From positions 1 to 49,619 of the IMG/VR virus record IMGVR_UViG_3300025308_000005: DNA of 49,619 nt. The stretch is one strand, 5' to 3'. Below are positions 2,009 through 44,597 of the stretch, one piece after another (within the stretch, counting starts at the first letter, position 1; the number at the start of each line of letters is the position of its first letter). This DNA comes from a virus. Both the position numbers and the translations under genes were made by a program. Under the pieces are notes generated by a model. That model was not told where the DNA came from. It did no database searches and saw only the letters and a program-made list of their open reading frames with translations.

Positions 2009-2009
2009 A

Positions 2010-2246
2010 CTAACCTTTCGAGAAGGCCAAGCGCAAACCTGCGCTGTTTGGCTGGCGCTTGGCCGGCTTCGATTTATTCTCCGGCGTCATGACATCATCG
2101 AAGTGGTTACGCATCAGCAGCGGCGCGCCGCTAGGCTTGGTGCCAACGGTCAGTCCTAGACCCCGCATGTAGCGCAGCTGGGCAGCATGCTGCGTCAGCG
2201 GATCGCACAGATCGTCTATTTCGGCTTGGGATAGCCACGGTGTCAT
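2010..2246 (-). CDS. DUF4224 protein next to integrase
   Basis: A 78-residue protein whose N-terminal half matches the DUF4224 pattern (LSQAEIDDLC, an alternating helix with AAQLRYMRGLG, then a short strand ending in LLMR). The family is small, winged-helix-like and typically encoded directly upstream of tyrosine integrases in phages; a DNA-binding or excisionase-like role is plausible but not shown. It abuts int with a 1-nt gap. The second element in this window has the same pairing (44394-45577). Confidence 0.7.
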   Translation of the reverse strand: MTPWLSQAEIDDLCDPLTQHAAQLRYMRGLGLTVGTKPSGAPLLMRNHFDDVMTPENKSKPAKRQPNSAGLRLAFSKG

Positions 2247-2249
2247 TTT

Positions 2250-2639
2250 TCAGATCACCACCGCATACCGCACGCCGGACGGGTGCACCAGGCGCAGCAC
2301 TTTGTCTTCACCCCTGACCATCGGCGAGATGTAATCCATCTCGCAATCGATGGCATTGATGCCGAGGTATTCGATCTGCTGCAGCATATCGTTCCAGGCG
2401 TGACCGGCGAAAGGATCTACCTGATGGCTGGATTTGTACTCCAGCACGGCATACACCTCTTCGTGCGGTACCGGGCATCCTTCCAGCACGGCTCCGCCCG
2501 GCTCGCCGACGACCAGGTTGTCCGGCACCAGCAGCAGCGTACCCATGCGCGCCGCGATCAGGTGACCGAATGCGCGGTACACCTGACGGTCGGCAGCAAA
2601 CAGTGACAGCAGGCCGAATGGGATAGATGCGCCGTTCAT
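2250..2639 (-). CDS. Phage protein of unknown function
   Basis: A 129-residue soluble protein that I do not recognise. It is mostly mixed alpha/beta with a hydrophobic N-terminus (PFGLLSLFAADRQ) and acidic patches (DAIDCEMDYIS-like region near residues 95-105). It has no signal peptide and no clear motif. Its ATG overlaps the stop of the upstream gene by ATGA, so it is translationally coupled in the leftward early operon and would be expressed with the integrase-proximal genes. Confidence 0.6.
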   Translation of the reverse strand: MNGASIPFGLLSLFAADRQVYRAFGHLIAARMGTLLLVPDNLVVGEPGGAVLEGCPVPHEEVYAVLEYKSSHQVDPFAGHAWNDMLQQIEYLGINAIDCEMDYISPMVRGEDKVLRLVHPSGVRYAVVI

Positions 2640-2833
2640 GGCTTTTCCTCCATCTGCGTCAGATTGTCTACGAGGCGCTGCAGGCGGATACGCTGCGCAA
2701 CGGCGATCTCAAGCTCTGCCATCGCCACATCAGATAGGATCAAGTTGTCGGTGACGGCCAGTGCGCGCAGGTCAGAGCACAGCAGCTCGGCGCACTGCGC
2801 GGCCTTGGTGGCGTTTTCAAGTTCTGGACTCAA
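2636..2833 (-). CDS. Small helical phage protein
   Basis: I chose a TTG start at 2833: GGAGG stands 6 nt upstream and the TTG overlaps the TGA of the upstream gene (TTGA). This gives 65 residues. Longer starts run far into the upstream gene and are improbable. The protein is almost entirely alpha-helical with heptad-like leucines (ALAVTDNLILSD, ELEIAVAQRIRLQRLVDNL), so it may dimerise. Function is unknown. It is coupled on both sides to neighbours in the early operon. Confidence 0.55.
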   Translation of the reverse strand: MSPELENATKAAQCAELLCSDLRALAVTDNLILSDVAMAELEIAVAQRIRLQRLVDNLTQMEEKP

Positions 2834-3162
2834 GCTACACCTCCGCGCTCGAACATATCCACTGTGTGCGGACAGCGATCTGGAGGAACCGGCTGGCCTT
2901 TCGGCACGAACGCCGTGCAGCACGGCTGCCCGTCATTGCCGTATTGCCACTCGGACGGGTATTCCGGCTCGTCAATGTCGTGCACGAACGTCATGCCGAT
3001 GATCTCGCAGCGCTCATCTTCTTCTGGGTTGTCCCTGGCACACTTCCAGCACCAGCGCGAGAAGAAGCAATCTCCCTCGGTGCCGTTGCTCGGGCGGTAC
3101 TTCTGGCCTGCTCTGTGGATATTCATTTCCGCCAGTCCAGCCGGGTGGAATCCTTTGTTCAT
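2830..3162 (-). CDS. Cysteine-rich phage protein
   Basis: A 110-residue protein starting MNKGFHPAGLAEMNIH; the ATG overlaps the previous stop as ATGA, which decides the start. It contains several cysteines (DCFFSRWCWKCARD near residues 32-45, then CEII, a CC pair in GQPCCTAF, and DRCPH), suggesting a metal-binding fold. No known family is recognised. Its place in a chain of ATGA overlaps shows that it is part of the early leftward operon. Confidence 0.6.
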   Translation of the reverse strand: MNKGFHPAGLAEMNIHRAGQKYRPSNGTEGDCFFSRWCWKCARDNPEEDERCEIIGMTFVHDIDEPEYPSEWQYGNDGQPCCTAFVPKGQPVPPDRCPHTVDMFERGGVA

Positions 3163-4007
3163 GCTGTCGCTCCTTCGATAATGACTCTGCGAATCTCCAT
3201 CGCGCGCGTCTGCCCACATTTCAGGAACCCGCGAATGCCGGCGACCGTTGGCTCGCACCTGCCTGCCTTGATTGCATCCGTTACTTTGGTAACGGGATCG
3301 GTAGCGTCCTCGGTAATGCTCTGCGTTAATGGGCCTTCATCGGCTACGGCCGGAGATTGCGAGGCCATACGCGGCCGCAAGGCCTCGAACCACAGCAGCG
3401 CGCCAATCAGCTCCAGCAGAATCGAGAATGACAGTCCGATGACTACCGACACTGCGCTTTCAGTCCAGCCCGTTACCGCCGAGAGTCGAGTCGTTACAGG
3501 GTCGGACGCGCCATCCACCTGCACGACCTTGGACTCTTCCTCGAAGCGCGCCAGATCGTCGCGCAAGCGCGCCGCGCGCTGTCCCTCGGCAATCTCTGCG
3601 CGCAGCGCTGCACGGACGCGCCTGTCGCTTTCCTGCGCCAGCTCAGCCGCCACCGTTGCCATGGGACGCGCCTTGATCTCATCCAGCGCGGCATGCGCCG
3701 TGGCGATCTGTCGATCGATGTGCCTGGACAGCGCCGACTGCTGCGCATGAGTATCTGCAGCGCGCAGGCTGGCGTGGGTGAGGAAGGTCAGATGCCCGTA
3801 AATCGCGCACAGCAGGCAGACGCTCCACACCAGCCAGGCCACGGGACGGCGGGACAATGCCGGCAGCAGATGCACGGCCAGCACGATCACCACCGACAGG
3901 GCAACCAGCAGCGCCTTGTCGATGCCAGTGCCGCCACGATCCCATGCTGCGACGGCAGTCATCGCGGCGGCGGTTATGGTTACGAAAACGGCGAGCAGCT
4001 TGATCAT
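3159..4007 (-). CDS. Membrane protein with coiled coil
   Basis: The start at 4007 (MIKLLAVFVTIT) is chosen because it overlaps the upstream stop (ATGA); the longer frame upstream is a shadow of the neighbouring gene. This gives 282 residues. Three N-terminal hydrophobic helices (about 1-20, 33-55, 62-82) are followed by a charged coiled coil (about 95-180, rich in Arg/Glu/Ala), a fourth membrane helix (SAVSVVIGLSFSILLELIGALLWF, about 195-218) and a soluble tail ending in a small helical DNA-binding-like segment. Function is unknown; similar multi-helix plus coiled-coil proteins are common in phage early regions. Confidence 0.6.
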   Translation of the reverse strand: MIKLLAVFVTITAAAMTAVAAWDRGGTGIDKALLVALSVVIVLAVHLLPALSRRPVAWLVWSVCLLCAIYGHLTFLTHASLRAADTHAQQSALSRHIDRQIATAHAALDEIKARPMATVAAELAQESDRRVRAALRAEIAEGQRAARLRDDLARFEEESKVVQVDGASDPVTTRLSAVTGWTESAVSVVIGLSFSILLELIGALLWFEALRPRMASQSPAVADEGPLTQSITEDATDPVTKVTDAIKAGRCEPTVAGIRGFLKCGQTRAMEIRRVIIEGATA

Positions 4008-4285
4008 GCTGCCCTCGCATGGAATTGATGGTTGACGTTGCCGCGGCCGTTTGGGAAGCGGTTCTCTAGGTAGCAAGCCTTGCATGTCTCGCTCAGGCCG
4101 TCGCCGTTCTTTCCGGCCGAGAAGAAGAACTCGGCGTCTGCTGGCCAGTAGTCTTTGCAGATCGAGCAACGTTTTTCCAGCTCGCCGTCTTCGCTCACTC
4201 GGTACACCTGTTTTTGCAGGCGAGATGCCAGCAGGCTTTCGGATGGTTTGGCCTTCTTGAATTTGGCCGATTTCATGTCGCTCAT
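4004..4285 (-). CDS. Small zinc-ribbon phage protein
   Basis: A 93-residue protein starting MSDMKSAKFKKAKPSE; the ATG overlaps the upstream stop (ATGA). It has two CxxC knuckles, KRCSICKDYWP near residues 38-48 and ETCKACYLENR near 67-77, spaced like an HNH or treble-clef zinc finger but without the HNH histidines, so a nucleic-acid-binding role is more likely than nuclease activity. Function is not known. It is coupled to the membrane protein downstream. Confidence 0.6.
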   Translation of the reverse strand: MSDMKSAKFKKAKPSESLLASRLQKQVYRVSEDGELEKRCSICKDYWPADAEFFFSAGKNGDGLSETCKACYLENRFPNGRGNVNHQFHARAA

Positions 4286-4674
4286 GATTGGTCTCCATTT
4301 CGTGAATATCCGGCGCTCTCGGCACCGAGGTAGATGGCGTGCTCGTCGTGGACGACGGCGGCGCGGCGGTAGCTGACCATCATGCCGACGTAGAGGGCGT
4401 TGGCCGCCACTACGAACAGGCCGCCGTAGAAGCTCAGCGGCTGGTTCAGCGCGGGGTAGTAGTAGAGGTTCCACAGCCCCCACAGGGTGAAGAAGCAGAC
4501 GCTGGCCAGCGACACGCCGCGCGTTTCCTTGTGGAGGCGCAGCACGCGGCAGTGGTTGAGCACGAAGAACCCGGCAGATAGCTCGAACAGGCCGTTGACG
4601 AAGTCCATGTTGATCGCGGCGAGCAGGCCGGCCAGCAGCGCGTGGACGGAGGTGATGGTATCGAGCGGGATCAT
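4282..4674 (-). CDS. Multi-helix inner membrane protein
   Basis: A 130-residue protein starting [16 protein letters not shown], coupled to the upstream gene by ATGA. Four hydrophobic segments are visible (about 8-25, 30-48, 58-78 and 84-102), followed by a short hydrophilic tail. Its compact size and early position make superinfection exclusion or host-takeover functions conceivable, but there is no sequence support for any of them. Confidence 0.6.
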   Translation of the reverse strand: MIPLDTITSVHALLAGLLAAINMDFVNGLFELSAGFFVLNHCRVLRLHKETRGVSLASVCFFTLWGLWNLYYYPALNQPLSFYGGLFVVAANALYVGMMVSYRRAAVVHDEHAIYLGAESAGYSRNGDQS

Positions 4675-5180
4675 GCTGCAGCCTCCACTTCGGCGATAAC
4701 TTCCCGAGCGTATGGAAACTCGGAAAGGTCGCACGCCTTCAACACGCCGAGCAGCTTGTCGCGCTGCATCACTGCACTGACATGATCCTTCAGGCTGGCT
4801 TCCTCCATTGCAGAATCTATTCCGCCGCCTGCGTTGTAGTGCCGCTCAAGAACGTCTGTGTCGATTCCTTTGCATGCTGATTTGCAGGCACGCAGGCGAG
4901 GGTGAAGCTCCAGATGACTTAGCTCCTGGTCAACGATCTCGTTCTGCGAGTCCAGCAGCACAGTCATGCCGAAGCACACGCGGAACAGCGAGGCTCGCTT
5001 TTGGACGCCGATCATGAACTCGACGACAGCCGCGGCGTGCTTGCTCTCGTTGTACCAGACAGGCTCGTCTTGACCCTCTGTCATTTCGTCAGGCAGATAT
5101 CCGCCCTCCAGTGATTCCAGCGCGCGGCACATCGCCAGCGCGGCCTCCATGTCTCTCTCGGTTGCTTTTGCCATTTTCAC
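4671..5180 (-). CDS. Phage protein of unknown function
   Basis: I chose a GTG start at 5180, which overlaps the upstream TGA and has GGAGG 6 nt upstream; the alternative is ATG at 5174. The product has 169 residues. It is soluble and largely helical, with scattered Cys/His residues ([17 protein letters not shown]) and an acidic N-terminal third. No family is recognised. It forms a coupled chain with the HD-domain gene upstream and the membrane protein downstream. Confidence 0.55.
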
Positions 5181-5767
5181 AGCGCACCTCCCAACTCTTC
5201 CCAGCGTTTCAGAAACTCGCGGCGGGCCTTCTCTGGCCCCCACGGATTGATCACCTCGCGCAACGGCTCGATGTCCTTGATCAGCGCCCATTCGTCGTCG
5301 TGCGGCGGCATCAGGTCGCGCTGCTCGGTGGCGAGCAGTGCCAGGTCTATTTGCTTCACCGCGGTCGGCATCGGCAGCGGAAGTCCGAAAGCAGCGAACA
5401 GAGCTGCTTCGACACGCTGCTCGATGATCTTGTACTCCGGCAGCAGTTGCTTGAGCGGGCGGGTGATGTCGCCCAGGTAGGCCTCGGCGGCGTCGTGCAG
5501 CAGCGCAGCCATTGCCATTTTTTGCGGATGCAGCGCGGGCTCTCCACTCACAGCCCATACGTTGGTGCAGGCTTCCATCTCGCGGCTGGCCAGCACCGAG
5601 TGCTGCGCCACGCTGTAGAACTCGCGGGTGTGGCCGGCGAAGCGGCAGACGTGCGACAGCGCGTGGGCGATGTCCTCGATGCGGAACTGGTTGCGCTCAG
5701 GGTTGAGGAAGTCGAAGTAGTGGCCGCTGTAGGTCAGGATGTCGGGGCGGATGGCGGGGGCGTTCAT
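5177..5767 (-). CDS. HD-domain phosphohydrolase (YfbR-like)
   Basis: A 196-residue protein with the HD-superfamily metal ligands: VAQHS near residue 54, [12 protein letters not shown] near 90-100 and a later Asp in [11 protein letters not shown]. The [11 protein letters not shown] box is typical of YfbR/5'-deoxynucleotidase-like HD hydrolases found in phages, which hydrolyse (deoxy)nucleoside monophosphates. It would adjust nucleotide pools during phage replication. It sits in the coupled early operon, with its stop overlapping the next start. Confidence 0.8.
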
Positions 5768-6015
5768 GCTTCACCGCCCTGTTTCTTGCCGCAGAATGGG
5801 CAGAATGTGTGCATCAGCGGGCTATGCTCCTTTTTCTTCTGTCCATCCAGCTCGACCTCTACATCAGAGTAGGTTCTGGTGATCAGATGATTGTCCGTAA
5901 GCTGCATGGTGATCCCTTTAATCTCGATACCATTCACAGCCTTTTTGAAGCGTCCCGGCTGCTTCATATGTTCGAGCAGCTTTCCCTTGATCTCTGTTAG
6001 GCAGTTGCAATTCAT
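5764..6015 (-). CDS. Small zinc-ribbon phage protein
   Basis: An 83-residue protein with CNC near the N-terminus ([10 protein letters not shown]) and a C-terminal CPFCGKK knuckle. This pattern is common in short phage proteins, where the CPFCG box and an N-terminal Cys pair together bind zinc. The middle holds beta-strand-rich sequence with alternating polar residues. Function is unknown. The start overlaps the upstream gene by ATGA. Confidence 0.6.
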
Positions 6016-6575
6016 GCTGGTGTCCTTTCAATGTGGATAACTTTTCCGATCTTTCCGTCGACCACCTCTGCGACGACGACGCGGTCGACGCTTCCCGGAT
6101 CGATGCCGAGGAACGTATGTCGCGCCTCCCTCATTGGGATCTGCGGCATGGCCTTGAGGCGCTGCATGGAGTCGTACAGGGTGAGCACGTCCATCTTCGG
6201 CAGGTGTTCTTCGGCCTTCTTGATTCCGGCGAGCAGGGTGGCTTGTTCAAGGCCGCGCAGCTCCCATAGGTCGGAGGCGTCGCCGCGCCGTCCTGCGTCG
6301 TTCATCGCCCGCATTGCACCCTCGATGACGGTGAGCACGGCTGCGTCCTTGGGTGGACGCAGCACCATCGCGCCGTAGATGCAGTTGATCGCCTGTCCGA
6401 TGCGGTCGTACTGTTCCTTGCTGAAATAGCCGAGCGTCGCGGCGTTGTAGGCGGCGTGCAGCACCAGGCCGAAATCGTCGAGCAGCCCGGTGACCGGGAT
6501 GTTGACGTGCTTGCGACGATAGACCTTGTTGCGTCGGCTGCGCGCGGCGCGCTTCTGCTGGGCGCGGGCGTTCAT
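6012..6575 (-). CDS. Phage protein of unknown function
   Basis: A 187-residue protein with a very basic N-terminus (QQKRAARSRRNKVYRRK) followed by helices (about 25-155). The last 40 residues, beginning FLGIDPGSVDR and ending in the short strand GKIGKVIHIE, resemble the first strand of an RNase H/RuvC fold, but the remaining acidic residues are absent, so no nuclease call is made. The basic leader suggests nucleic-acid contact. It is coupled to both neighbours by ATGA overlaps. Confidence 0.55.
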   Translation of the reverse strand: MNARAQQKRAARSRRNKVYRRKHVNIPVTGLLDDFGLVLHAAYNAATLGYFSKEQYDRIGQAINCIYGAMVLRPPKDAAVLTVIEGAMRAMNDAGRRGDASDLWELRGLEQATLLAGIKKAEEHLPKMDVLTLYDSMQRLKAMPQIPMREARHTFLGIDPGSVDRVVVAEVVDGKIGKVIHIERTPA

Positions 6576-6940
6576 GCTGCCACTCCTTCAGCAGCACCGA
6601 TCTTTTCGCCCAGCGATTCGCAGGCGTTGTAGACGCTCTCGACTGTCGCGCCGTAGCGCTCGGCCTCTTCCTTCACGGCATCATCGTTCGGATATGCCGC
6701 TGCCCAGGCTGCTTTCAGACCATCCAGCTCGGTGGCCGAATCCAGCGCGGCCTTGATCAGTACCGCGACCTTATGCTCGCGGCAGTCGCAGGCATAGTGG
6801 CAGGTGCCGCAGGCTCGCGTTGGCGCTGCCGGAGGCGCGTAGTCGTGGATGGCGCGATGGCAACCGGCGCAACCCAGCGTGATCTCGCAACCCGCGCCGC
6901 CATCCGGACGCATGCAGCCGATGACTTTGCTGGAGCTCAT
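6572..6940 (-). CDS. Cysteine-rich phage protein
   Basis: A 122-residue protein. The N-terminal 55 residues contain many Cys/His residues (GCMRPDGGAGCE, LGCAGCHRAIH, ACGTCHYACDC), a pattern that would bind at least two zinc ions. The C-terminal half is helical and acidic. No family is recognised. It is part of the chain of overlapping early genes. Confidence 0.55.
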   Translation of the reverse strand: MSSSKVIGCMRPDGGAGCEITLGCAGCHRAIHDYAPPAAPTRACGTCHYACDCREHKVAVLIKAALDSATELDGLKAAWAAAYPNDDAVKEEAERYGATVESVYNACESLGEKIGAAEGVAA

Positions 6941-7386
6941 AGCACCACCTCCGCGACCTTGGCCTTGATGTCTTCCTGCCCGGCGCGGAAGCCTTTGGCG
7001 TACTGATCACCAGGATTGAAGATCAACAGCATGCGCTGCATGTCGTCCAGCCACTCGTCGAAGGCGTTGATGCACTGGCACATTGCATCCAGATGGGTAT
7101 CGAGAATGCCGCTCGCATCCATTTTCAGGCATCGCGGCCGGTCGTTTTCAGGCACACGATCTTTGAATCCTGCAGCCCATCTCCAGCGCCCGCCGCTGCT
7201 ATAGTTTTCTGGTTTGATCGGGTACTGGTAGATGTATAAATCAATCTGATCACGAACGGTGCCGTATTCAATACCATCGTTTCTCACGGACTTTCTCCAG
7301 ATCCTCCCGCCGTATTCGATGGCGTCAGGCCATGCGACATATTCCTTTGCTGGTGTTGCTGTTGGTGTTGCTGGCGCTTGTTCCAT
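6937..7386 (-). CDS. Phage protein of unknown function
   Basis: A 149-residue protein with a Pro/Thr/Ala-rich N-terminus, an aromatic middle region (EYGGRIWRKS, DLYIYQYPIK, GRWRWAAGF) and a helical C-terminal segment ending in a valine-rich tail. It has no membrane helix or catalytic motif that I can identify. It starts downstream of a good GGAG box and is coupled to the next gene. Confidence 0.55.
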   Translation of the reverse strand: MEQAPATPTATPAKEYVAWPDAIEYGGRIWRKSVRNDGIEYGTVRDQIDLYIYQYPIKPENYSSGGRWRWAAGFKDRVPENDRPRCLKMDASGILDTHLDAMCQCINAFDEWLDDMQRMLLIFNPGDQYAKGFRAGQEDIKAKVAEVVL

Positions 7387-7423
7387 GGTGGTCTCCTAGT
7401 AAGCGTTGGTGGTGGGTGCTGCG

Positions 7424-7573
7424 TTATCGATAAACGGTGTCTCGTGCGAGCTGGATGGACTCGCGGAAGGTGTGTCCCTGCTTCTGGTAGTAGTCCTGGT
7501 CGAGCAGGAATCGCCAGGCGCGCACGATGCTTTTGCGGATGCGCTGGATGCGCAGTCTGATCAGGCCTTGCAT
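7424..7573 (-). CDS. 49-residue basic microprotein
   Basis: A 49-residue frame beginning MQGLIRLRIQRIRKS. The ATG is preceded by GGAGGTGAG at ideal spacing (6 nt after GGAGG) and overlaps the end of the upstream gene by 13 nt in another frame, which supports real translation. The product is strongly basic, with alternating Arg/Ile in a predicted amphipathic helix, then a Tyr-rich turn and a second helix. Function is unknown. Confidence 0.5.
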   Translation of the reverse strand: MQGLIRLRIQRIRKSIVRAWRFLLDQDYYQKQGHTFRESIQLARDTVYR

Positions 7574-7776
7574 GGCTCACCTCCGGCGACGACGAAGGCC
7601 TCTACCGCTTGGCGCGATGCGACGGTGTGGTGCAGGGCCACTTCGAAGCGCCCCTGATCGACGGCGCGCATGGCGCTGTTCAGGTGCGACTGCGCGCGGA
7701 CCATGCAGGTGCGGCGACTCTTCGCGCGATCGACGGCCACGGCTCCAGATTCAACGGATGCGTCTTGGTTATGCAT
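7561..7776 (-). CDS. Small helical phage protein
   Basis: I chose ATG at 7776 (MHNQDASVES), 8 nt after GGAGG; a GTG six bases earlier is too close to the ribosome binding site. This gives 71 residues. The protein is alanine-rich and helical (RAQSHLNSAMRAVDQG, VALHHTVASRQAVEAFV). Function is unknown. It overlaps the 3' end of the primase gene and the start of the next microprotein. Confidence 0.5.
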   Translation of the reverse strand: MHNQDASVESGAVAVDRAKSRRTCMVRAQSHLNSAMRAVDQGRFEVALHHTVASRQAVEAFVVAGGEPCKA

Positions 7777-10519
7777 GCTCACTCCCTCCTTTTGGATACT
7801 CGAACACCCAGCACTTCACGGTCGCCGTCCTCTCGTCGCCGCCTTTCTTCGCGCGGCGCAGGTTCCATGCGGCATTGATGGCGCTGTTCACCGACTTCTG
7901 GCCGATGTACTTGCGCACGCGGCTGGTCTTGAGCAGCTTCTTCAGCTCTGCCAGATCCGGCACCTGCTGGCGGAAGTCGCTGGCGACTGCGACGAAGTGG
8001 TTGAGGCTGATGGCGATCTGCTGGTCATCCTTGCGGGCGTGATTCAGGCGCGGGGTGTTGTCGTTGCCGTTGAGGAACTCGTAGGTCTCCCAGAAGCTCT
8101 GCACGGCCGGATGGTCGGCGTTGATCGCTTCCTGGCGTTCTGCGGCCATGTCCTCGATGAACGAGTGGGTGAGGTCGCGCTCGGCGTTGCCAATGTGGAC
8201 GACGTGCGAGAGGGCGTCCACCAGCGCGGCCAGCATGGCGTGGTTCTTGACGATGCGCAGGTTGCGCACGCCCTGCACCTTGAGCAGGCGCTTCTCGTGG
8301 AAGGGCAGGCGCTCTTCGAAGCTGGCGAGGATGGCCTTTTCTGCCATCGTGGCTTTGATCATGAATCCGGACAGCGCGTCCACGCCGATCTGGCCCAGCT
8401 CGTCCGCTGCGTGCTTCGATTCCTGCGTGTGCGATGCCAGGTCGAAGCCGATGTGGCAGATACGCTGCATGATGGCGTCTGACGCCTGCACGTTGGCGTT
8501 CTGGCTGATGACCAGCGCGCCGCGGAAGGGCGGCTCGTAGGTCTCGTTGCCGCTGTTCTTGACGCCCCGGCTGTAGACGCTGCGCCCGTTGTAGAGCGGC
8601 TTGAGTTCGTCCCAGTCGAATCCCTTCTGCTTCACGCGGTCTTCCTCGCCGCGGTCGCCCTCGATCAGCACCACCGGCATGTTCGACACCTGCGAGAAGT
8701 TGCGCGCCCGCGCCGCCATGGTGGATTTGCTCGGGTCGAAGCCCTCGTAGTCCGAGCGGCCCAGCAGCCGCCACAGGAACTCGATCAGGGTGGACTTACC
8801 CGCGCCCGGCTCGCCGACCAGCTCGATGAAGGGGAAGGACTTGTGCTTGTTGCGGATCTGCTCGGCGAACAGGCTGCCCAGCCAGAAGGCTAGCGCCACC
8901 ACACCCTTGTACTGGTAGCACTTCCACATCAGGTCCAGCCACTCGCGCGAGAATTCGTTGAGGTCGGTGTTGATCGCCAGATCTACCGAGCGGTTCAGGC
9001 TCTTGATAGAGAGCTTGCCGAGGTCGAAGAAGTCCTCGTCGTTGAGCGGCACCAGCCTGCCGTTCTGGATCGCCATGTCGTTGAACACCCACGCGCCGTG
9101 ATCTTTGCTGTAGCCGATGAAGTCCACGGTCTGCACCGTCTTGATGTGAAAAAGCTGGCGCTGCATGATGCGGTCGAGCTGCTGGCCGTTGCCGGTGTAC
9201 ACCGCGCCGGGCGCGATCGAGAGCAGGCGCTTCTTGAATTCTCCCGCGCTGGTCAGCATCGACCCGGTGAATGTGTTCTTGACCGACTCGCCGCTGTGCG
9301 GGAAATCTACGCGCACGTAGTACCAGCTCTCGTCGGTGATCAGGTTGGCCTGGTAATAGAGCGCGGTGAAGAAGCAGTTCGCGATCTCGCGCAGGGTGTG
9401 CGACTCCATCATCGCGCGTTCGCGGATGTCTTTTTCGCTCAGGTCGTCGTAGGCCTTGGCGATCTCTTCCTTGGCCTTGGCGAACTTTTCGAGGTTGATC
9501 TCGAACCAGTACATGCGGTTGTCGAAACCGAAGTAGAAGGAGTTGATCTCCTTGCCGTGATTGAACATCAGCAGCGCCTTCTCGTGCGCGCTCTTGGCCA
9601 TCAGCAGCGCGCCGCGATAGAGCGAATCCTCCAGCATCTTCGGCGTCAGCTTGTCGCGCTGGTGCAGCTCGTTCCAGTCCAGCTTCAGCTTGCCCTCGTC
9701 AGGCGGCTGTGCGGCCACGGCTTCCCAGCCATCGGCGATGCTGCGCTCTACGTGCTTCTTGGTGAAGCGTTCTCCGGCCTTGCCGGTGTCCATCGCCCAC
9801 ACCAGGCGCGGGCGCTTGCGGCCGAGCGCGGCGCACTGCTCGGCCAGCGCCTTGAGCGCCTTGTCCGGATAGTTGTTGCAGGAGAGCGGCGTCGCGCTGG
9901 CGATGTCGTGGTGCAGCAGGGCGGCGCTGTCGAAGATGCCCTCGACGATCCAGATGTCCTTCACCGACTCGGCGGTGAGGTCGAGGCCGGGTGCTGTCCA
10001 CCAGTGGCCCTTGTAGTCACCCTTGAATGTTGCCTTGCGCTTGCCGAATCGCTCCGGCTTGTCGATGATGCGCTCCCAGTAGCCGATGCCTGGCAGGGGG
10101 AAGCGCACCGTCGCCGAGCCTTGTTTCAGCATCGGGTCGAAGTAGCTCTCCTGCTCGTACCAGCCCTTGACCTTGGCCAGCTCGAAGCCGCGACCGTCGC
10201 GCATGTAGGCGTCGGCGGCGGCGTTCGGGTCCTGCGGCGTCACCGGATGGCGCTCGCTCCAGTTGGTGAACAGATCCGGATACAGCTCCTTGACGTGATA
10301 TTCCACGCCGCACTTATTCAGGCGTCCGCAGCGCAGCACCCAAGGCGCTTCCGCATTGGTGTACAGTTCCTTCTTTCCGCACGAAGGGCAGCGCCCGCCG
10401 CGCAGGTAGCCGCCATGCAGCTTGAACTCGTAGTCCCTGTCGAGCTGGCGCGTGATGTCGGAATGTAGTCTCGGGTTCATCGTCATGTTCAGTAAATTTC
10501 GGGTGTAAAAATCCCGCAC
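7769..10519 (-). CDS. P4-alpha-like DNA primase/helicase
   Basis: A protein of up to 916 residues that would prime and unwind prophage DNA. In order: an N-terminal zinc finger (CPSCGKK and CGRLNKC, about 44-70), a Toprim-like primase domain (VEGIFDSAAL about 192-201, WAMDTGKAG about 241-249, LDWNEL), a long linker, and a helicase domain with Walker A GEPGAGKST (about 568-576) and a Walker B-like VVLIEGDRGEED. The order Zn finger, Toprim, SF3/DnaB-like ATPase matches satellite P4 alpha and related prophage proteins. The start is uncertain: GTG at 10519 or ATG at 10486 (MTMNPRL) have equally weak upstream signals. P2 itself uses the HUH protein gpA, so replication here differs from P2. Confidence 0.85.
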   Translation of the reverse strand: MRDFYTRNLLNMTMNPRLHSDITRQLDRDYEFKLHGGYLRGGRCPSCGKKELYTNAEAPWVLRCGRLNKCGVEYHVKELYPDLFTNWSERHPVTPQDPNAAADAYMRDGRGFELAKVKGWYEQESYFDPMLKQGSATVRFPLPGIGYWERIIDKPERFGKRKATFKGDYKGHWWTAPGLDLTAESVKDIWIVEGIFDSAALLHHDIASATPLSCNNYPDKALKALAEQCAALGRKRPRLVWAMDTGKAGERFTKKHVERSIADGWEAVAAQPPDEGKLKLDWNELHQRDKLTPKMLEDSLYRGALLMAKSAHEKALLMFNHGKEINSFYFGFDNRMYWFEINLEKFAKAKEEIAKAYDDLSEKDIRERAMMESHTLREIANCFFTALYYQANLITDESWYYVRVDFPHSGESVKNTFTGSMLTSAGEFKKRLLSIAPGAVYTGNGQQLDRIMQRQLFHIKTVQTVDFIGYSKDHGAWVFNDMAIQNGRLVPLNDEDFFDLGKLSIKSLNRSVDLAINTDLNEFSREWLDLMWKCYQYKGVVALAFWLGSLFAEQIRNKHKSFPFIELVGEPGAGKSTLIEFLWRLLGRSDYEGFDPSKSTMAARARNFSQVSNMPVVLIEGDRGEEDRVKQKGFDWDELKPLYNGRSVYSRGVKNSGNETYEPPFRGALVISQNANVQASDAIMQRICHIGFDLASHTQESKHAADELGQIGVDALSGFMIKATMAEKAILASFEERLPFHEKRLLKVQGVRNLRIVKNHAMLAALVDALSHVVHIGNAERDLTHSFIEDMAAERQEAINADHPAVQSFWETYEFLNGNDNTPRLNHARKDDQQIAISLNHFVAVASDFRQQVPDLAELKKLLKTSRVRKYIGQKSVNSAINAAWNLRRAKKGGDERTATVKCWVFEYPKGGSEHA

Positions 10520-10575
10520 GCCATTTCTCAGGGCATGTGCTATCGGGTGCGAGTCGGGTTGTTACGAGTTCAGGA

Positions 10576-10851
10576 TCAACCTGTCAGAGGGGGGGGCATT
10601 GCCGTCGTGCCGATCTTGTCTGAAAGCGGGATGAAGACCTTCGGATTCGGCATCCTCGACGCCACGATGGTGCGGATCGCGGAGAGCAGCGATGCCCAGG
10701 TGTGGCCGCATTCCGGGTTGGTGCACTGGAAGTAGATCTCGCGCGATATTTCGGAGATGGCCTTGCTGGTGCGAATCTCCGCCTTGCTCTCGCAGTGTGG
10801 GCAGATCACCCGCATCCTGGTCGCGTGATAAACCTTCTTTTTCTCAGACAT
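10576..10851 (-). CDS. ogr: Ogr/Delta-type late transcription activator
   Basis: A 91-residue zinc-finger protein; ATG at 10851 is chosen because GGGAGG stands 8 nt upstream. Cysteines 17, 20, 43 and 48 give CxxC-x22-CxxxxC, the exact spacing of P2 Ogr and P4 Delta, with the conserved RTSKAIS and CTNPECGHTW boxes. In P2 this protein binds an inverted repeat centred about 55 nt upstream of late promoters and recruits RNA polymerase through the alpha subunit. Three copies of a matching inverted repeat are found at 20419, 27904 and 34679. Unlike P2 ogr, which follows gene D, it sits in the early operon next to the primase. Confidence 0.85.
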   Translation of the reverse strand: MSEKKKVYHATRMRVICPHCESKAEIRTSKAISEISREIYFQCTNPECGHTWASLLSAIRTIVASRMPNPKVFIPLSDKIGTTAMPPPLTG

Positions 10852-10935
10852 TGCCAATCCCTCCCTTGAACTACAGTGATTTCCCGGCGAAAGGCATGGT
10901 TATCCTGTAGCCCGGCAGACAAAAAAAGAGAGCGC

Positions 10936-11511
10936 CTAGCACTTCGCCCCCATCATGGTCTCCACCATGTTCTGCGCATTGCGCAGCACCTCTTGAGCCT
11001 CGGCGATCTGGTGCTGCGCGTTTTCCAGCTCGCCGGGGTCTTCGCCATCCAGCAGCGCGGCAACTGCCTGCTGCGCCTCGGACGATTCGATCATCATTGC
11101 GCGCAACATGCCGATGGGGGAGTCGTGCGACTCGCTCGCCACCATCCGGCAGGCCATGCCATGGCCGCGCAGCATGTCGTCCAGTAAGTGCATGCGCAGA
11201 TCGGAGGGCAGGGCGGCGAGGATGGAAGGCACGAAGTTCGCGCACAGCAGGTTGTTGTCTTTGGTCACATCGTCCAGCCAGCGGAAGATGCGGTCGGCGT
11301 TGACCTTCATGCGGCTGTAGGTGTCCCGCGTTTGCGGGTCGAATACGATGCCGCTGACCTGCTGCAAGCCCTCGCGTTCGTGCGCCTCAACGATCATCTG
11401 CGCCGCAGTCTCGCGGCTCCAGTCGTTCTGCTTACGCCACACCTCGACGGCGTCGCGGATGGTCGCGATCCAGGTGTGCGAATTGCGTTGCAAGAGTTGG
11501 CGTTTGGACAT
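10936..11511 (-). CDS. YdaT/CII-like regulator
   Basis: A 191-residue protein resembling the YdaT family of E. coli cryptic prophage Rac: an N-terminal helical region (DAVEVWRKQNDWSRETAAQMI), the NADRIFRWLDD segment (about 70-80) and the VPSILAALPSDLRMHLL helix. YdaT proteins are CII-like transcription activators that are toxic when overproduced. A C-terminal coiled-coil tail (about 145-190) may tetramerise. The position, second gene of the leftward operon after a Cro-like gene, fits a CII-type switch role. The assignment rests on by-eye similarity. Confidence 0.5.
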   Translation of the reverse strand: MSKRQLLQRNSHTWIATIRDAVEVWRKQNDWSRETAAQMIVEAHEREGLQQVSGIVFDPQTRDTYSRMKVNADRIFRWLDDVTKDNNLLCANFVPSILAALPSDLRMHLLDDMLRGHGMACRMVASESHDSPIGMLRAMMIESSEAQQAVAALLDGEDPGELENAQHQIAEAQEVLRNAQNMVETMMGAKC

Positions 11512-19173: not shown

Positions 19174-20346
19174 TTAAGCGCTGATGGCGGACGCGAAGTC
19201 GACCAGGTAGCGGTCGGTGATGCGCTGGCGGAACATCAGGTTTTCCAGCGGCGGCACCGGCGTGTAGTCGTAGTCGATGTACAGCTTGCCGTCCTTGAGC
19301 GTCACCGCGCTGTTGGCGTCCGGGTCATACCAGGCGCTGCCGTCGATGATGTAGCCCAGCGACTTCAGCTCGCGGAACTTGGCGTTGATGCCCTCGATGA
19401 TGTCGCGTGCCAGCGAGGGGTTCAGCGGCTTGTCCACAGCCCAGAAGTGCGCCTCGGCCATGGTGTCCATCAGAACTTGTGCGGTGCGGGTGTAGTTCTC
19501 GAAGGCGAACAGCGGATCCGCAGAACAGGTGCGGGATCCCCAGAAGCGGAAGCCGTTGTGGCGGATCAGCGTGGTGACTTCGTTGCTGTTCAGGTAGCCG
19601 GCGTCGGTGGCAGGGTCTTGCAGGTCAAAGAAGATGTCCTTGTTCAGGCCAGTGACGCCGTTGACCGGGATGTTGGACAGGGTCTTGTGCCAGCCGATCT
19701 CTTCGTCAAGCTTGGCGCGCAGGCCCACAGCGCGAGCCGTGGCGTAGGCGGTTGCCGATGCGTTTGCGACCACGTCCCAGGTGAGGAAGTCCGGCCAGAT
19801 GACCATGACTTCGCGCTGGCCGAAGTTGTCGCGATAGAGCGAGGCCGCTTCCTTGGTGTCAGCGCCCCAGGCGGAGACGTAGGCGAAGGCGCGCAGCTTC
19901 TGGGCGATTCCAGCCAGCTCGGTGGCAACGGCCAGCGTGTCGAGGCCTGGGCAGGCAAGGATGCGCGGCTTGACGCCGAGCTGCACCTGCGCTGCCAGCA
20001 AAGCCTTCATGCCGGTGTATTGTCCGCCTGCCGTGACTGTGCCGATCACTGCGCTGTTGGTGGCAGCCTCGTCCACGCCGGGTGCGACGCGCACCACGAC
20101 GACCAGTGCATTGGTCTGGTCCGCAATGGCGTCCAGCGCCTTTGCCAGCGTGCCCTGGGTACCGGCCTTGGCGATGCCTGCCAGCACAGAGGTCAGCAGG
20201 ACTGGTGTATCGAGCGGGAATGCGACCGCATCTGCGTCTGGCGCGGTACAAACCAGGCCGATGATGGCGGTGGAAATGGTGCGGATTGGGCGTGCGCCGG
20301 TGTTGATTTCAACGACCCGGACGCCGTGGTGGTAATCGACTGGCAT
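19174..20346 (-). CDS. FI: Tail sheath protein gpFI
   Basis: A 390-residue contractile sheath protein of the P2 gpFI family. It begins [27 protein letters not shown] and ends with the [23 protein letters not shown] region that forms the sheath-tube linkage. The GSRTCS box near residue 265 and the domain order match P2 FI (396 residues). An AGGAG ribosome binding site precedes the ATG. The gene should be driven by an Ogr-dependent promoter whose binding site lies at 20419-20441. Confidence 0.95.
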
Positions 20347-20378: not shown

Positions 20379-21488
20379 CTAGCATGCCTCGCGCTGATTG
20401 ATATGGCTGGCGGTGCGTGTTGTGTTCGGCGATTCCACAACCTGCGCACGGCCCTGCCCTCTGGTGAAAACGAATTTCTCCAGCAGGCTTTTCTGCAGGC
20501 CGCGAGTTTCGGCGTGCTGTGCATGGCCGAGCCACGAGATGAGAGACTGGCGAATCCTGCCAAGCGTCACCCGACCTTCGGCATAACCCTTCTGCAGCTT
20601 CTTCATCGTCCTGGTGATGCGCTGGATAGAGCTTTTGCGCAGCTTGCGGTGGGTCGTCCAGATCCGGTAGCCGAGGAAGTCCATCGCGCGCCCTCTGAAC
20701 CCGCACACCGGGAAGATCTGCGTCTTGGCATTGGTCTTGAGCCGCAGTCGATCCATCAGGAATTGCTCGACCCGCTCGCGCACTCTGCCCAGATGCGCCT
20801 TGTCGTGGTGGACGATGCAGAAGTCGTCCATGTAGCGCATGTAATAACGCTCGCGCAGGCCGTGCTTCACGAATTCGTCCAGTTCGTGCAGGTAGATGTT
20901 CGCGAGCAGTTGGCTGGTGAGGTTCCCGATTGGGATGCCGACTTCCTTGCCGGTGGAGTCGATGATGTTGTCGATCAGCTCCAGCGTCTTTTTGCAGGCG
21001 ATTCGGCGGCGCACCAGCGACTTCATGGCGGCATGGTCGATGCTGTGGAAGAACTTGGATATGTCAGCCTTGAGCACGTAGACCTTACCGTGATCGCGCT
21101 TCACGCGGCGCAGCATGGACTGGGCGCGGTCGGCACCCTTGTGCGTTCCGCGTCCGACCCGGCAGGCGTAGCTGTCAGAGATGAAGCGCCGCTCCCATAT
21201 CCACTCGATCGCGCCCACCAGCGCATGCTGCACGACGCGGTCACGGAATGGCAGCGCGGCCACGATGCGCTCTTTCGGCTCCTGCACGATGAACTGCCGA
21301 TATTTGCCGGTCTTATAGACTCCCCATATCAGCTCGTTCTGCAGCTGGATCAGGTTGCCTTCCAGGTCGAGCTCGAAGCGCTGCACCTCGGCGCGCGTGC
21401 GCTTGCCGCGACGGGCGCGCAGATAGGCCGCATGCAGATTCTCGAAACTGTAAATCTCGGGGAAAAGGTTGTTGTAAGTTTTTGCCAT
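20379..21488 (-). CDS. DGR reverse transcriptase
   Basis: A 369-residue group-II-intron-like reverse transcriptase of the DGR clade. Visible motifs: LKADISKFF with the first catalytic Asp (about 142), GIPIGNLTSQLLANIYL (184-200), whose [LIV]GNxxSQ box is characteristic of DGR enzymes, and YMDD (219-222). No maturase X, endonuclease or integrase domain follows. With Avd it would copy TR RNA, misincorporating opposite adenines, and the cDNA replaces VR in the variable protein gene. The last 20 or so codons run through the late promoter of gene FI, and the stop lies 32 nt before the sheath ATG. Confidence 0.95.
   Translation of the reverse strand: MAKTYNNLFPEIYSFENLHAAYLRARRGKRTRAEVQRFELDLEGNLIQLQNELIWGVYKTGKYRQFIVQEPKERIVAALPFRDRVVQHALVGAIEWIWERRFISDSYACRVGRGTHKGADRAQSMLRRVKRDHGKVYVLKADISKFFHSIDHAAMKSLVRRRIACKKTLELIDNIIDSTGKEVGIPIGNLTSQLLANIYLHELDEFVKHGLRERYYMRYMDDFCIVHHDKAHLGRVRERVEQFLMDRLRLKTNAKTQIFPVCGFRGRAMDFLGYRIWTTHRKLRKSSIQRITRTMKKLQKGYAEGRVTLGRIRQSLISWLGHAQHAETRGLQKSLLEKFVFTRGQGRAQVVESPNTTRTASHINQREAC
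20419..20441 (-). promoter_or_regulatory. Ogr site and late promoter for FI
   Basis: GTTGTG-N11-CACAAC inverted repeat identical to the copy at 34679. Its centre lies about 56 nt upstream of the predicted +1, and a -10-like CATGCT follows 33-38 nt after the repeat on the minus strand. P2 Ogr sites are centred near -55. The leader to the FI ATG would be about 28 nt with an AGGAG box. The promoter is embedded in the RT coding end. Confidence 0.75.
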
Positions 21489-21652
21489 AGCACCCAGAGG
21501 GCGGCGGCTGCGAACGGTCGCCGGATGGCTACTGGAACGGGCCGCCTGTTTAATGTTTCGGCTTCAGGTTTCCCGTGGCCGAGGATTGCGCGTCCTTTTG
21601 AGGGTGTGCTGTCGTCAAGCCCGTGAGCCTGACGCTTCTGACTTTCCCCAAG

Positions 21653-21764
21653 AGCGGGGCGAGACCCGATGTTCGTGTTGGCGTTCGAGCGCGCGTTGTT
21701 CAAGTTCAGCGCGAACACCCCGTCGAGCGCGGCGTTGTTCCAGTTGCCGCCCCGGATCGGGAGC
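21653..21764 (-). repeat. DGR template repeat (TR)
   Basis: A 112-nt non-coding repeat 18 nt after the avd stop and 165 nt before the RT start. It aligns without gaps to VR at 22242-22353. The ten mismatches all fall at TR coding-strand adenines (12 other adenines are unchanged, no other base differs). Its sense strand is rich in AAC codons (nine), which can be diversified to 15 residues without making stop codons. After the shared GC-rich 3' end the two sequences diverge at once, as expected for the IMH/IMH* difference. Confidence 0.95.
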
Positions 21765-21781
21765 CTGTCAACGCACAACCC

Positions 21782-22165
21782 TTACTGCTCTCCCGCTGAA
21801 ATCGATTTGACCCAGCCGCCTAACATGCGGCCGATCTCGTCGTTCAGCTTGGACCAGTTCTCGTACTTTTTGAAATCCAGATGGCCGAGATTCTTTGCCA
21901 TGCGCACTTGCGAGCGCAGCAAGTCGATCTCGGCATCCAGCTCCTGCAGCGTGGTCTTCTTGTAGTAGCGCTTGTTGCACACCACGATCAGCCTGAGTAT
22001 CTGCCACATCGTGGTGCGGATCTCCGCACCCAGCACATGGCGCTCCATCTTGGGAAATTGACGGATTGCCACATTCCCATACTCGATCATCGCCTCGCAC
22101 TTCTGCCGAATCAGCAGGTCGCCAACTCTCGGATCTTCCTCATTCCGCATTGTTGCGCGAGACAT
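21782..22165 (-). CDS. avd: DGR accessory protein Avd
   Basis: A 127-residue four-helix-bundle protein of the Avd/bAvd type: helices around KCEAMIEYGNVAIRQFPK, TMWQILRLIVVCNKRYYKKTTLQELDAEIDLLRSQVRMAKNLG and KYENWSKLNDEIGRMLGGW. Avd forms a basic pentamer that binds RT and the TR RNA and is needed for mutagenic reverse transcription. AGGAG stands 7 nt before the ATG. Its place between the variable protein and TR is the commonest DGR order. Confidence 0.9.
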   Translation of the reverse strand: MSRATMRNEEDPRVGDLLIRQKCEAMIEYGNVAIRQFPKMERHVLGAEIRTTMWQILRLIVVCNKRYYKKTTLQELDAEIDLLRSQVRMAKNLGHLDFKKYENWSKLNDEIGRMLGGWVKSISAGEQ

Positions 22166-22185
22166 TCAATACTCCTAAAAACAAT

Positions 22186-22207
22186 CGGATGGGCTATCGC
22201 CCACCCG
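22186..22207 (-). repeat. Hairpin downstream of VR (DGR cruciform or terminator)
   Basis: A 9-bp stem (one G.T wobble) with a GATA tetraloop lies 35 nt after VR and just past the stop of the variable protein. DGRs often carry a short inverted repeat of this size after VR that raises homing. On the minus strand it is followed by a T-rich run (TTGTTTTT), so it may also be an intrinsic terminator before avd. Confidence 0.65.
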
Positions 22208-22229
22208 ACCAGATTACACGCTACAGATT

Positions 22230-23342
22230 TCAGAGTACAAAAGCGGGGCGAGACCCGAGGCTCGTGTTGGCGTCCGAGCGCGCGTAGTTCAAGGTCAGCG
22301 CGAACACCCCGCCGAGCGCGGCGTTGCCCCAGCTGCCGCCCCGGAACGGGAGCATTTCGCCCGTGAGAGTGTGCCAAATACCGTCGCCGCCCAGGGTGCC
22401 AGCGCCGGACACAGGGAATACACTCTGCGCCTTGAGCACTTGCAGTGCGGTTGCGCCGACCGGTGTGCCGTGGTTGTTCACCATCGTCTCGATGGATGCG
22501 CCGGATGCAACGCCCAGCGTGTATGCGGCTGCGCTGGTCGCGCCCAGCTTGACCGAGTTGACGGTGGTGGCGGCATAGTTTCCGCCGGCCAGCGTGCCGG
22601 TGAAGGTTGGAGCGATCAGCGCGCCGGTCGCGCCATCGATGGCCTTCCAGTCTGCCGAGGTTGCGCCGTGATCGGCAGCGTTCAGGGCTGCGTCGTTGTT
22701 GGCGATGATCTGGATCTCGGCCAGTCCGGCACCGGCTGGCACCAGGCGCAGGCCAGGCGTCCATTCCCAGATGTTTCCGTTCAGGTCGGCAATGCCGTTC
22801 GGCGTGTTGTCATGCCGCCACGATGCCGGGCCGGATCCGGTGAGTGTGCGCGCAGTGCCGGAGGCATTGCCTGCGGCCAGCCCGTCCTGACGACGACCGG
22901 TCTCGTGCGTTTGTGCGTTGTCTCGGCCATAGTAGGTATTGCCGCGCGGCATGAAGCCGTTCTTCTTGCACCACAGCGCGAGTGCGGCCCATTCGGCGTT
23001 GGTGATGCAGTGGAAGCCAGCACCGCAGGCACGGGCATAGCCCACGAACTGGTCGAAGTTGGCGGACGCAGTCGGGTCAACTCCTGGCAGGCTCAGCAGC
23101 TCGCCGTTCTTGACGACGCCCTGATAGGTGCCGATGAAGATCTCGGATTTCGCCACGCCGTTCACGATGAAGGCAGGATGGACGCCAGCGCCGACACCTG
23201 CGTCCACGTCTTCCAGGTTGAATTGCGGGATGACGTTCATGTACGTCGGCTGTCCAAGCGCTGTATATAGCACGGTCTGACGGCCGCCGGAAGCGGCCTC
23301 AACGCTGGCGCGCAGGGAGTCTTTGATGAAGATGGTAGGCAT
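22230..23342 (-). CDS. DGR variable protein (FGE/CLec fold), tail tip
   Basis: A 370-residue protein whose C-terminal domain has the formylglycine-generating-enzyme/C-type lectin pattern: FHCITNAEWAALALWCKKNG, NTPNGIADLNGNIWEW and, in the variable segment, LPFRGGSWGN through GSRPAFVL at the very C-terminus. The last 38 residues are encoded by VR, so binding-site residues are rewritten from TR. The N-terminal part would attach to the tail. Its position between fibre genes and FI, where P2 has its fibre chaperone gene, implies a receptor-binding role. AGGAG precedes the ATG. Confidence 0.92.
   Translation of the reverse strand: MPTIFIKDSLRASVEAASGGRQTVLYTALGQPTYMNVIPQFNLEDVDAGVGAGVHPAFIVNGVAKSEIFIGTYQGVVKNGELLSLPGVDPTASANFDQFVGYARACGAGFHCITNAEWAALALWCKKNGFMPRGNTYYGRDNAQTHETGRRQDGLAAGNASGTARTLTGSGPASWRHDNTPNGIADLNGNIWEWTPGLRLVPAGAGLAEIQIIANNDAALNAADHGATSADWKAIDGATGALIAPTFTGTLAGGNYAATTVNSVKLGATSAAAYTLGVASGASIETMVNNHGTPVGATALQVLKAQSVFPVSGAGTLGGDGIWHTLTGEMLPFRGGSWGNAALGGVFALTLNYARSDANTSLGSRPAFVL
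22242..22353 (-). repeat. DGR variable repeat (VR)
   Basis: A 112-nt segment at the 3' end of the variable protein gene, colinear with TR. Coding changes from TR to VR: two Ile codons became Phe and Leu, six Asn codons became Ser, Gly, Thr, Tyr, Asp and Ser, and one Asp became Gly. Nine of the 13 adenine-containing codons are altered. All non-adenine positions are identical, showing past mutagenic homing and little drift since. Confidence 0.95.
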
Positions 23343-23372: not shown

Positions 23373-23705
23373 TTAAGCGACGGGCCAGAGTTCGACCGAG
23401 ATCGCGTTCGGGTCGAGTGGCACCTCGGTGCGGACGATGGTCGGCTCGCCGGTTTGCGGATCCGGATCGCCTTCGACTCCCTGGTATTGCTTGGCCGGGA
23501 TACGAATGATCGCCAGGCAAGCTCCGCCGCTCTTCGGGTTGATCCTGACTGCGCCGGCCTTGTCTTTCACGACGTTGAGCAGCACCTGGCTGTCGGCCTG
23601 CAGTGCAGCGCAGTCGATGGCTGTGCCAGCGATCGAGATAGTGGCGCCGGACACGCCGAAGTCGGCGACCGGCTGTCCTGGGGATTGAATGGTGATATGT
23701 GCCAT
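23373..23705 (-). CDS. Small tail/baseplate-associated protein
   Basis: A 110-residue beta-rich protein with an N-terminal repeat of short strands (ITIQSPGQPVADFGVSGATISIAG) and a C-terminal region ending in ISVELWPVA. I do not recognise the family. Its position between the fibre gene and the variable protein gene suggests that it is part of the fibre or links the variable protein to it. Confidence 0.6.
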   Translation of the reverse strand: MAHITIQSPGQPVADFGVSGATISIAGTAIDCAALQADSQVLLNVVKDKAGAVRINPKSGGACLAIIRIPAKQYQGVEGDPDPQTGEPTIVRTEVPLDPNAISVELWPVA

Positions 23706-23715
23706 GTTCAGCTCC

Positions 23716-24669
23716 TTAGTAGGCTAGGTTGGTTGGGTAATTCACGTTTGCCAGGGTGACTGCAAAGCGGCTGCGCCAGTCATTGGTCGGCTGAGCATCT
23801 ACGCTGTTCAGTCTCGACAGCTTCCAGCGCACCACGACATCGTCCGCCGCCGAGAACAGCGTGACGATGAAGTTGTTGGTGTTGCGCGTGGTCACCTTCA
23901 GGCTGCGCTCGTCGCACGGGCTGCCGACAGCGCTCAGCACCTCGAACTCGACGGTGTAGTTGGTATCGGGCAGAACATTGACCAGCGGTACGGTGTAGGT
24001 CACCGGCGTGCCGACCGAGTTCGGGTAGTCCAATTCGGTCGCGCACAGTCTCGACGACAGGGTGCATGCGGCCAGATCGGCTCCCGCATCGTTTGCCGGG
24101 ATGGTGATGCTCAGCAGCGTCACTGTGCTGGTTGGCGGCGTCGGGCTTGCGATGGTGGTGATCTTGAGCTTGGGCACGCCAGCGACAAGTTGCAGGTAGG
24201 CATAGACCGTTGCGCTGGCCGCTTCGCCGACCGGCACACTCATATCGGAGTCGTGTGCTGGAACGAAGAACTTTCGCCCTTCTAGGTAGCAGACGCCGGC
24301 TGCAATCGAGAGCAGGCGGTTCGCGCCTTTTTTGCTCACCACGCCACCGGACACCATGCCGTAGTTGTACATGGTGAACTCGCCCTGCTGCTGGTTGATC
24401 TTGTGCAGCGCATGAACTCCGGAATTAGCAAGGGCAGCCTGCTCCATCGAGAACTTGATCGCGCCGCTGACCATGTTGTGCATGTCCGGATCGAGCCCTT
24501 CGAGATTCGCCTCGGCAGCAACGAGGCGCTCCTTCAGGTGCTGCGTGCGGTTTGCCAGCTGCTTTGCCTGGACGTTTGCCGTCCCATTTTCTCCGCCGAG
24601 AATCGCATCAGTTGTTTCGATGCGATAGATGCCATTTTCCCAGGCGGTGCCTTCGGTTAGATTTGCCAT
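23716..24669 (-). CDS. Tail fibre protein
   Basis: A 317-residue protein with the common N-terminal phage-fibre attachment motif (ENGIYRIETTDAILGGENGTANVQAKQLANRTQHLKERL, about 11-50), a coiled-coil segment (about 50-100) and a beta-rich body. It lies after I and is probably the base of the fibre, equivalent in place to P2 gpH but much shorter. The distal receptor-binding role would be taken by the DGR variable protein downstream. Confidence 0.75.
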   Translation of the reverse strand: MANLTEGTAWENGIYRIETTDAILGGENGTANVQAKQLANRTQHLKERLVAAEANLEGLDPDMHNMVSGAIKFSMEQAALANSGVHALHKINQQQGEFTMYNYGMVSGGVVSKKGANRLLSIAAGVCYLEGRKFFVPAHDSDMSVPVGEAASATVYAYLQLVAGVPKLKITTIASPTPPTSTVTLLSITIPANDAGADLAACTLSSRLCATELDYPNSVGTPVTYTVPLVNVLPDTNYTVEFEVLSAVGSPCDERSLKVTTRNTNNFIVTLFSAADDVVVRWKLSRLNSVDAQPTNDWRSRFAVTLANVNYPTNLAY

Positions 24670-44393: not shown

Positions 44394-44597
44394 ATGCTGC
44401 TCACCATCAACGAACTGCGCGAACTGACCGGGCGCATCCAGAGCGATGCCCAGGCACGCAAACTGGATGCCATCGGCATTCCGTACCGGCGACGACTCGA
44501 CAAGTCGCTGGTAGTCAGTCGCGCAGCCGTTGACACTGTTTTGGGAGTACCACATGCAAGAACCGAAACCAACGAACCCCGCCTGCGTTTAGCATGA
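44394..44597 (+). CDS. DUF4224 protein next to second integrase
   Basis: A 67-residue protein matching DUF4224: MLLTINELRELTGRIQSDAQARKLDAIGIPYRRRLDKSLVVSR. It overlaps the integrase start by 4 nt. The same partner arrangement is seen in the large prophage (2010-2246), suggesting a conserved accessory role in recombination. Confidence 0.8.
   Translation: MLLTINELRELTGRIQSDAQARKLDAIGIPYRRRLDKSLVVSRAAVDTVLGVPHARTETNEPRLRLA

Follow-up and report, generated by a model that had tools for sequence, protein, structure and literature searches.

Results

The window analysed here, a 49,619-nucleotide stretch that makes up the whole of one viral record, carries on its minus strand three intact open reading frames, encoding a reverse transcriptase (RT), Avd and a target protein, together with a template repeat (TR) and a variable repeat (VR) (Table 1). 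A preliminary description had called this locus a complete DGR, with an RT bearing GNLTSQ and YMDD motifs, an Avd, and a VR that forms the C-terminus of an FGE/CLec-type protein. RT, Avd, the TR/VR pair and the C-lectin target are all present as stated, and the three proteins match the corresponding families. The extent given for the element, 20379–23342, is also correct; within it, the target site reaches beyond VR as far as an inverted repeat that the description had passed over.

Table 1. Features of the cassette and its immediate neighbours, in window coordinates.
Feature	Position	Strand	Matches and remarks
P2-type tail sheath (FI)	19174–20346	minus	immediately downstream of the cassette
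DGR reverse transcriptase (RT), 369 aa, IGNLTSQ and YMDD	20379–21488	minus	RVT_1, phrog_1423, 8UB7 bRT
TR–RT spacer, 164 nt	21489–21652	minus	position of BPP-1 Sp RNA; without array or hairpin
Template repeat (TR), 112 nt, 22 adenines	21653–21764	minus	begins 17 nt past the avd stop codon
avd, accessory variability determinant, 127 aa	21782–22165	minus	PF22296 bAvd (6.7e-31), phrog_3206
Inverted repeat: 10-bp stem (one G-T pair), GATA loop	22185–22208	minus	33 nt past VR; GRNA-type DGR hairpin/cruciform
Five NTG triplets (TTG, CTG, CTG, GTG, CTG), exact 7-nt period	22210–22240	minus	between VR and hairpin
Target gene, 370-aa C-lectin/FGE-type variable protein	22230–23342	minus	FGE-sulfatase, phrog_2889, 5VF4
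Variable repeat (VR), 112 nt	22242–22353	minus	final part of the target gene; 10 differences, all at TR adenines
Two genes directly upstream of the target; the N-terminus of one is tail-fibre-like	23373–24669	minus	phrog_3100/4209 tail fibre matches

The cassette is a canonical, complete DGR, combining a BPP-1-type RT and Avd with a C-lectin target of the TaqVP type. The RT belongs to the DGR clade and carries both [IVL]GxxxSQ (as IGNLTSQ) and YxDD (as YMDD); it matches the solved bRT (PDB 8UB7) with E = 2.4e-68 and is 40% identical to BPP-1 Brt. The accessory protein, Avd or HRDC in DGRs, is here Avd (PF22296). A non-coding TR is paired with a near-identical coding VR, the mismatches fall at TR adenines, and the VR lies in a ligand-binding scaffold of the usual C-lectin kind: the target protein matches Pfam FGE-sulfatase (1.7e-5), phrog_2889 (6e-131) and, over residues 5–370, TaqVP (5VF4, E = 4e-89). 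The IMH at VR is unlike the IMH* at TR, and the difference lies outside the 112 nt. By homology, the spacer between TR and RT may be the counterpart of the Sp RNA that primes cDNA synthesis (PMC12875486). A search for a DGR RNA family gave no Rfam match, and the RNA fold of TR plus spacer is as stable as that of shuffled sequences (z = -0.18).

The gene order is that of Bordetella phage BPP-1 (target–VR, avd, TR and RT on one strand), and the two systems share adenine-only differences between VR and TR and a GRNA hairpin past the VR. They differ in the target, which is Mtd in BPP-1 and TaqVP-type here; in the distance from VR to hairpin, 4 nt in BPP-1 and 33 nt in the window; and in the repeat, which in the window stays identical right to its 3′ end (112 nt), leaving the donor/recipient difference to the flank. 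The target is a full-length homologue of TaqVP, which comes from another host and another phage (the Thermus aquaticus prophage DGR), and in both proteins a C-terminal VR ends in the invariant RPAFVL strand. In the TaqVP crystal structure the variable residues make an exposed binding face on the C-lectin fold (PMC6328139). By alignment, six of the nine residues altered in the window are at TaqVP variable positions; the same alignment reading puts five window adenine codons at positions that are constant in TaqVP, and leaves one TaqVP variable position without an adenine in the window.

The cassette belongs to a P2-type tail operon, in which it is flanked by tail-fibre-like genes and the sheath gene and occupies the site of the P2 fibre genes; the two genes directly upstream of the target are the probable attachment context of the variable protein. 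The record has capsid, terminase, portal, sheath, tube, gpI, gpJ, gpD, gpR, gpA and integrase genes in the order of a P2-like (Peduoviridae-type) phage; those for capsid, terminase and portal show ∼68% DNA identity to Burkholderia P2-like phages. The P2-like phages VHML, ACA1 and Vibrio 58.5 also have a DGR in the tail module, with avd, TR and RT following. In VHML a SUMF1-type target lies between tail-fibre genes and sheath, just as in the window, and ACA1 is similar. However, the RTs of these phages are ∼50% identical to that of the window and their NTG arrays (described below) are shorter.

The integrase gene (44594–45577) is followed, 13 nt on, by a full-length mutS. The record therefore probably runs into bacterial chromosome at its right end, which would make the element an integrated prophage with an inferred boundary; a search for prophage attachment repeats found no exact direct repeat of 13 or more across the expected ends. 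The flanking MutS reaches at most 65% identity in the genomes searched, a level that suggests a host no more closely than as a betaproteobacterium, which it probably is.

Read on the minus strand (TR from 21764 to 21653, VR from 22353 to 22242), the two repeats align without gaps over 112 nt and differ at ten positions. Each is an A in TR; the VR bases are, in order, T, G, G, G, G, C, T, G, G and C (six G, two T, two C). The other 12 adenines and all 90 C, G and T are unchanged (10/22 adenines against 0/90 other sites), and ten random mismatches would all hit the 22 adenines with p = 1.1e-8. Direct reading of the window thus reproduces the earlier account of the pair exactly, including its unchanged sites. 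The whole 49,619-base record holds one TR and one VR, with no further copy of either. Adenines occur in 13 TR codons; nine residues are altered, none of the ten changes being synonymous. Adenine mutagenesis cannot turn any of the 13 codons into a stop codon, and the library at the protein level comes to about 1e13 variants. The record is presumably a metagenome assembly, and the VR may therefore be a consensus of several variants.

The preliminary description also held that the retroelement has been active, and proposed a comparison with related strains, which we ran. Five metagenomic contigs (L003, L004, L008, L009 and L036) carry the same cassette as the window at 84–87% DNA identity, with independent VRs and, in L003, an altered TR. 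The TRs of the other four are identical and their VRs differ pairwise at 4–14 positions, at most one per pair off the TR adenines. On the RT side, for example, L004 and L009 show no difference across 840 nt, while their VRs differ at four adenine sites. Comparable pairs with the same TR and different VRs occur across the family, including in Burkholderia, Pigmentiphaga and Pseudothauera genomes. Moreover, the window and its relatives differ at 7 to 11 non-A sites of TR, and every one of these differences (7/7 to 11/11) is mirrored in the VR of the same cassette, which implies that VR was rewritten from TR after the lineages split. Between the window and L003, 11 of 11 such differences are mirrored and 32% of RT four-fold sites differ; the four-fold figure is taken from this pair only, because those for L004, L005, L008 and L009, with reading frames out of alignment, are unreliable. 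The claim of activity thus gains from the differing VRs beside identical TRs, from the co-divergence of TR and VR and from the intact frames, and these sequence comparisons support the reading that the DGR has diversified its target.

That the element is a fossil, formerly working and now inactive with a frozen VR, is very improbable: the changed-adenine fraction of 0.45 is slightly under the clade mean of 0.49, as that reading would have it, but all three frames are intact, no non-A difference has accumulated over 90 sites, close relatives with identical TRs have diversified VRs, and VR and TR went on changing together once the lineage had parted from relatives that differ at 32% of RT four-fold sites.

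The further suggestion that activity was recent stands only in weakened form, and the co-divergence of TR and VR is stronger evidence than the purity of the mismatches. The absence of non-A mismatches at 90 sites is an upper bound only, placing divergence below about 3.3%. It does not date the activity: 28 of 32 relatives likewise have no non-adenine TR/VR mismatch, and such purity is the norm of the clade because each retrohoming event resets VR to TR.

Three related cassettes show departures of their own. The L003 TR (L003:4888–5000) differs from the identical TRs of L004, L008, L009 and L036 at five sites clustered in 11 nt, has lost an adenine at four of these, and looks like a VR-to-TR conversion or self-homing in which the template loses adenines. 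In L007 (5188–5252) the VR has a 47-nt internal deletion with a frameshift, six adenine changes and no other change; it represents retrohoming gone wrong, with the C-terminus of the target destroyed. In Idiomarina loihiensis (L171), compared with L147, another copy of the target lies a long way from the RT; it departs from TR at 19 sites, four of them not adenines, and looks like a decaying or separate target.

The inverted repeat 3′ of VR is the already known DGR cruciform. Phage DGR recipients have a hairpin with a GRNA loop 4–34 bp past VR (PMC3240598), and at 33 nt the window hairpin falls within that range. Among 77 cassettes with related targets, 61 have, within the 75 nt past VR, a GRNA loop on a stem of 7 bp or more, against 0.26% of shuffled flanks. 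Stem sequences differ among related cassettes yet stay paired.

Between VR and hairpin is a more regular feature. The 33 nt there, TTTGTACTCTGAAATCTGTAGCGTGTAATCTGG, contain the NTG triplets of Table 1, with the target stop codon at the start of the array. The four right-hand units have one match in the window, against 0.05 expected. Both array and hairpin are present at VR only and missing from the TR flank. Across 37 non-redundant VR–hairpin spacers, CTG occurs 118 times against 59.8 (s.d. 5.0) in dinucleotide shuffles, AATCTG occurs 48 times against 3.0, and 72 of 82 CTG–CTG distances are 7 or 8.

The pattern was first noticed in those 37 spacers themselves, and independent tests were therefore required. 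In 601 kb of DGR loci, 43 of the 55 three-unit arrays fall in spacers. A scan of viral contigs for the array pattern alone returned at least 80 readable loci; among the matches listed, 28 have a VR/TR pair, and among the 80 loci listed, 30 have a pair or an RT and 12 more have a GRNA hairpin. The reversed control pattern returned 21 loci, none of them with a pair or RT (0/21). Some of the remaining array matches listed are chance hits in coding repeats, and others are VR-like ends with no paired TR. One locus found through its array, L226, is a VR whose TR sits in another stretch of the same 90.5-kb record; over 110 nt, all 11 mismatches between the two are at A.

The array is unevenly distributed. 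Grouped by RT identity, cassettes with at least three YTG at 7–8 nt number 13 of 15 (≥60%), 6 of 12 (40–59%) and 4 of 30 (<40%), against an expected 0.2–0.27; some related cassettes (L022, L024 and L032) have degenerate arrays. Of 75 cassettes with an array, 64 have an Avd-like frame between VR and TR; of 52 without, 9 do, a comparison confounded by phylogeny. We found no description of such an array in the accessible parts of the literature on the IMH or on DGR hairpins, and it may be undescribed.

Six records (L184, L197, L218, L221, L224 and L253) hold VR-like gene ends with an array and a GRNA-like hairpin, and no RT was found in those records. These ends are possible orphan or trans targets, or fragments.

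Discussion

By homology with known DGRs, the RT–Avd complex would reverse-transcribe TR RNA, placing random bases opposite adenines, and the resulting cDNA would replace VR at the 3′ end of the C-lectin tail protein gene. Up to about 1e13 variants of the target's ligand-binding face could result. Judging from the position and homology of the target, an altered face would probably shift which cells the phage attaches to. Taken as a whole, and with these steps included, the locus is almost certainly a complete, functional-looking BPP-1-type DGR in a P2-like prophage. As such it is one more well-formed example of an ordinary element, because more than 30,000 DGRs are already catalogued, with mismatches overwhelmingly (≥75%) opposite TR adenines in all clades (Roux et al., PMC8144416). 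The less ordinary part is the 3′ flank.

TR and VR are identical up to GCT and first diverge one base past the repeat (GCTT versus GCTC). Because the repeats are identical to their 3′ ends, only the 3′ flank can hold what sets the recipient apart from the donor: the one base, the array or the hairpin. We propose that the array is the initiation/recipient signal of this clade, and array and hairpin may jointly act as its IMH. Perhaps Avd reads the array. Avd is a pentamer, and the 7–8 nt spacing and usual 4–5 units suggest one triplet per subunit of the Avd ring, which is speculation. In its general form the proposal is tentative, possible rather than probable: in Avd-bearing DGRs the recipient would be set by a hitherto undescribed series of 4–6 NTG triplets, one every 7–8 nt between VR and hairpin, that distinguishes VR from TR and is read triplet by triplet by the Avd ring subunits. 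Any gene with array, hairpin and VR could then be a target, in cis or in trans.

The short BPP-1 IMH (GTG-8-CTG-7-TTG, with the middle CTG missing from IMH*) would, on the same proposal, be a short form of the five-unit array of the window. The 4-bp spacer between VR and hairpin of BPP-1 can be altered without loss (PMC3240598), so a sequence-specific spacer is not needed in every DGR. This result is compatible with the array as IMH only if the BPP-1 IMH is within the repeat, as described. Against the array as a signal are its absence from most cassettes in the RT group below 40% identity and its degenerate state in some related ones.

We consider it unlikely that the array is instead an ordinary feature of the region, such as a set of three-frame stops, an avd leader or part of a terminator. 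In favour of that reading, 12 of the 37 spacers have stops in all three frames against 2.9 in shuffles, the VR stop codon is at the array start, and avd is next in the window. But as stop insurance the array must be rejected: one frame is stop-free through the window array, and the frameshifted VR of L007 reads through. A leader for avd is also unlikely. In L016 and L142–L144 the TR is ∼1.2 kb from VR, with space for another gene after the array, and the second Lagaffe VR is followed by a CTG series at 7–9 nt although its gene runs on for 354 nt, which puts that array inside the gene. A terminator, for its part, could do without NTG triplets held to a 7-nt register.

It is improbable that the array simply reflects common descent of a single cassette family, with no constraint on it. 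Most examples do come from a single RT clade and a single target family. Within that family, though, the triplets and their 7–8 nt steps stay while the intervening bases vary; the two VRs of Dulem virus 37 both hold ACTG in register with different neighbouring bases; and the scan for the pattern alone recovers VRs in many additional contigs. Two further ideas were set aside. Pairing of the array with a conserved GTCAGA of the TR flank, checked by eye, fails in L108, L109 and L114, which have arrays and no GTCAGA. The resemblance to the TAACTGA heptamer repeats of Beggiatoaceae is superficial, and PMC4679880 speaks of neither a reverse transcriptase nor a retroelement.

Should the array prove a genuine signal, it would help to answer how DGRs choose a recipient and protect the template. 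It would also offer a sequence-only route to remote targets, by which L226 was found, and a recipient rule that can be tested in the existing BPP-1 E. coli assay.

The surroundings of the P2-like module have features of their own. On the right (44594–48260) the prophage may sit at the 5′ side of mutS, where it could affect mismatch repair; after mutS (48335–49167) come genes for a ParD-type antitoxin and a YgiT/MqsA-type zinc-finger protein. The stretch to the left (914–11511) encodes another integrase, a Toprim primase of 916 aa and a CII-like regulator, and may be a distinct prophage or satellite beside the P2-like module. A DUF3800-IX RNA motif (51 bits) lies on the minus strand at 581–653, beside the left integrase.
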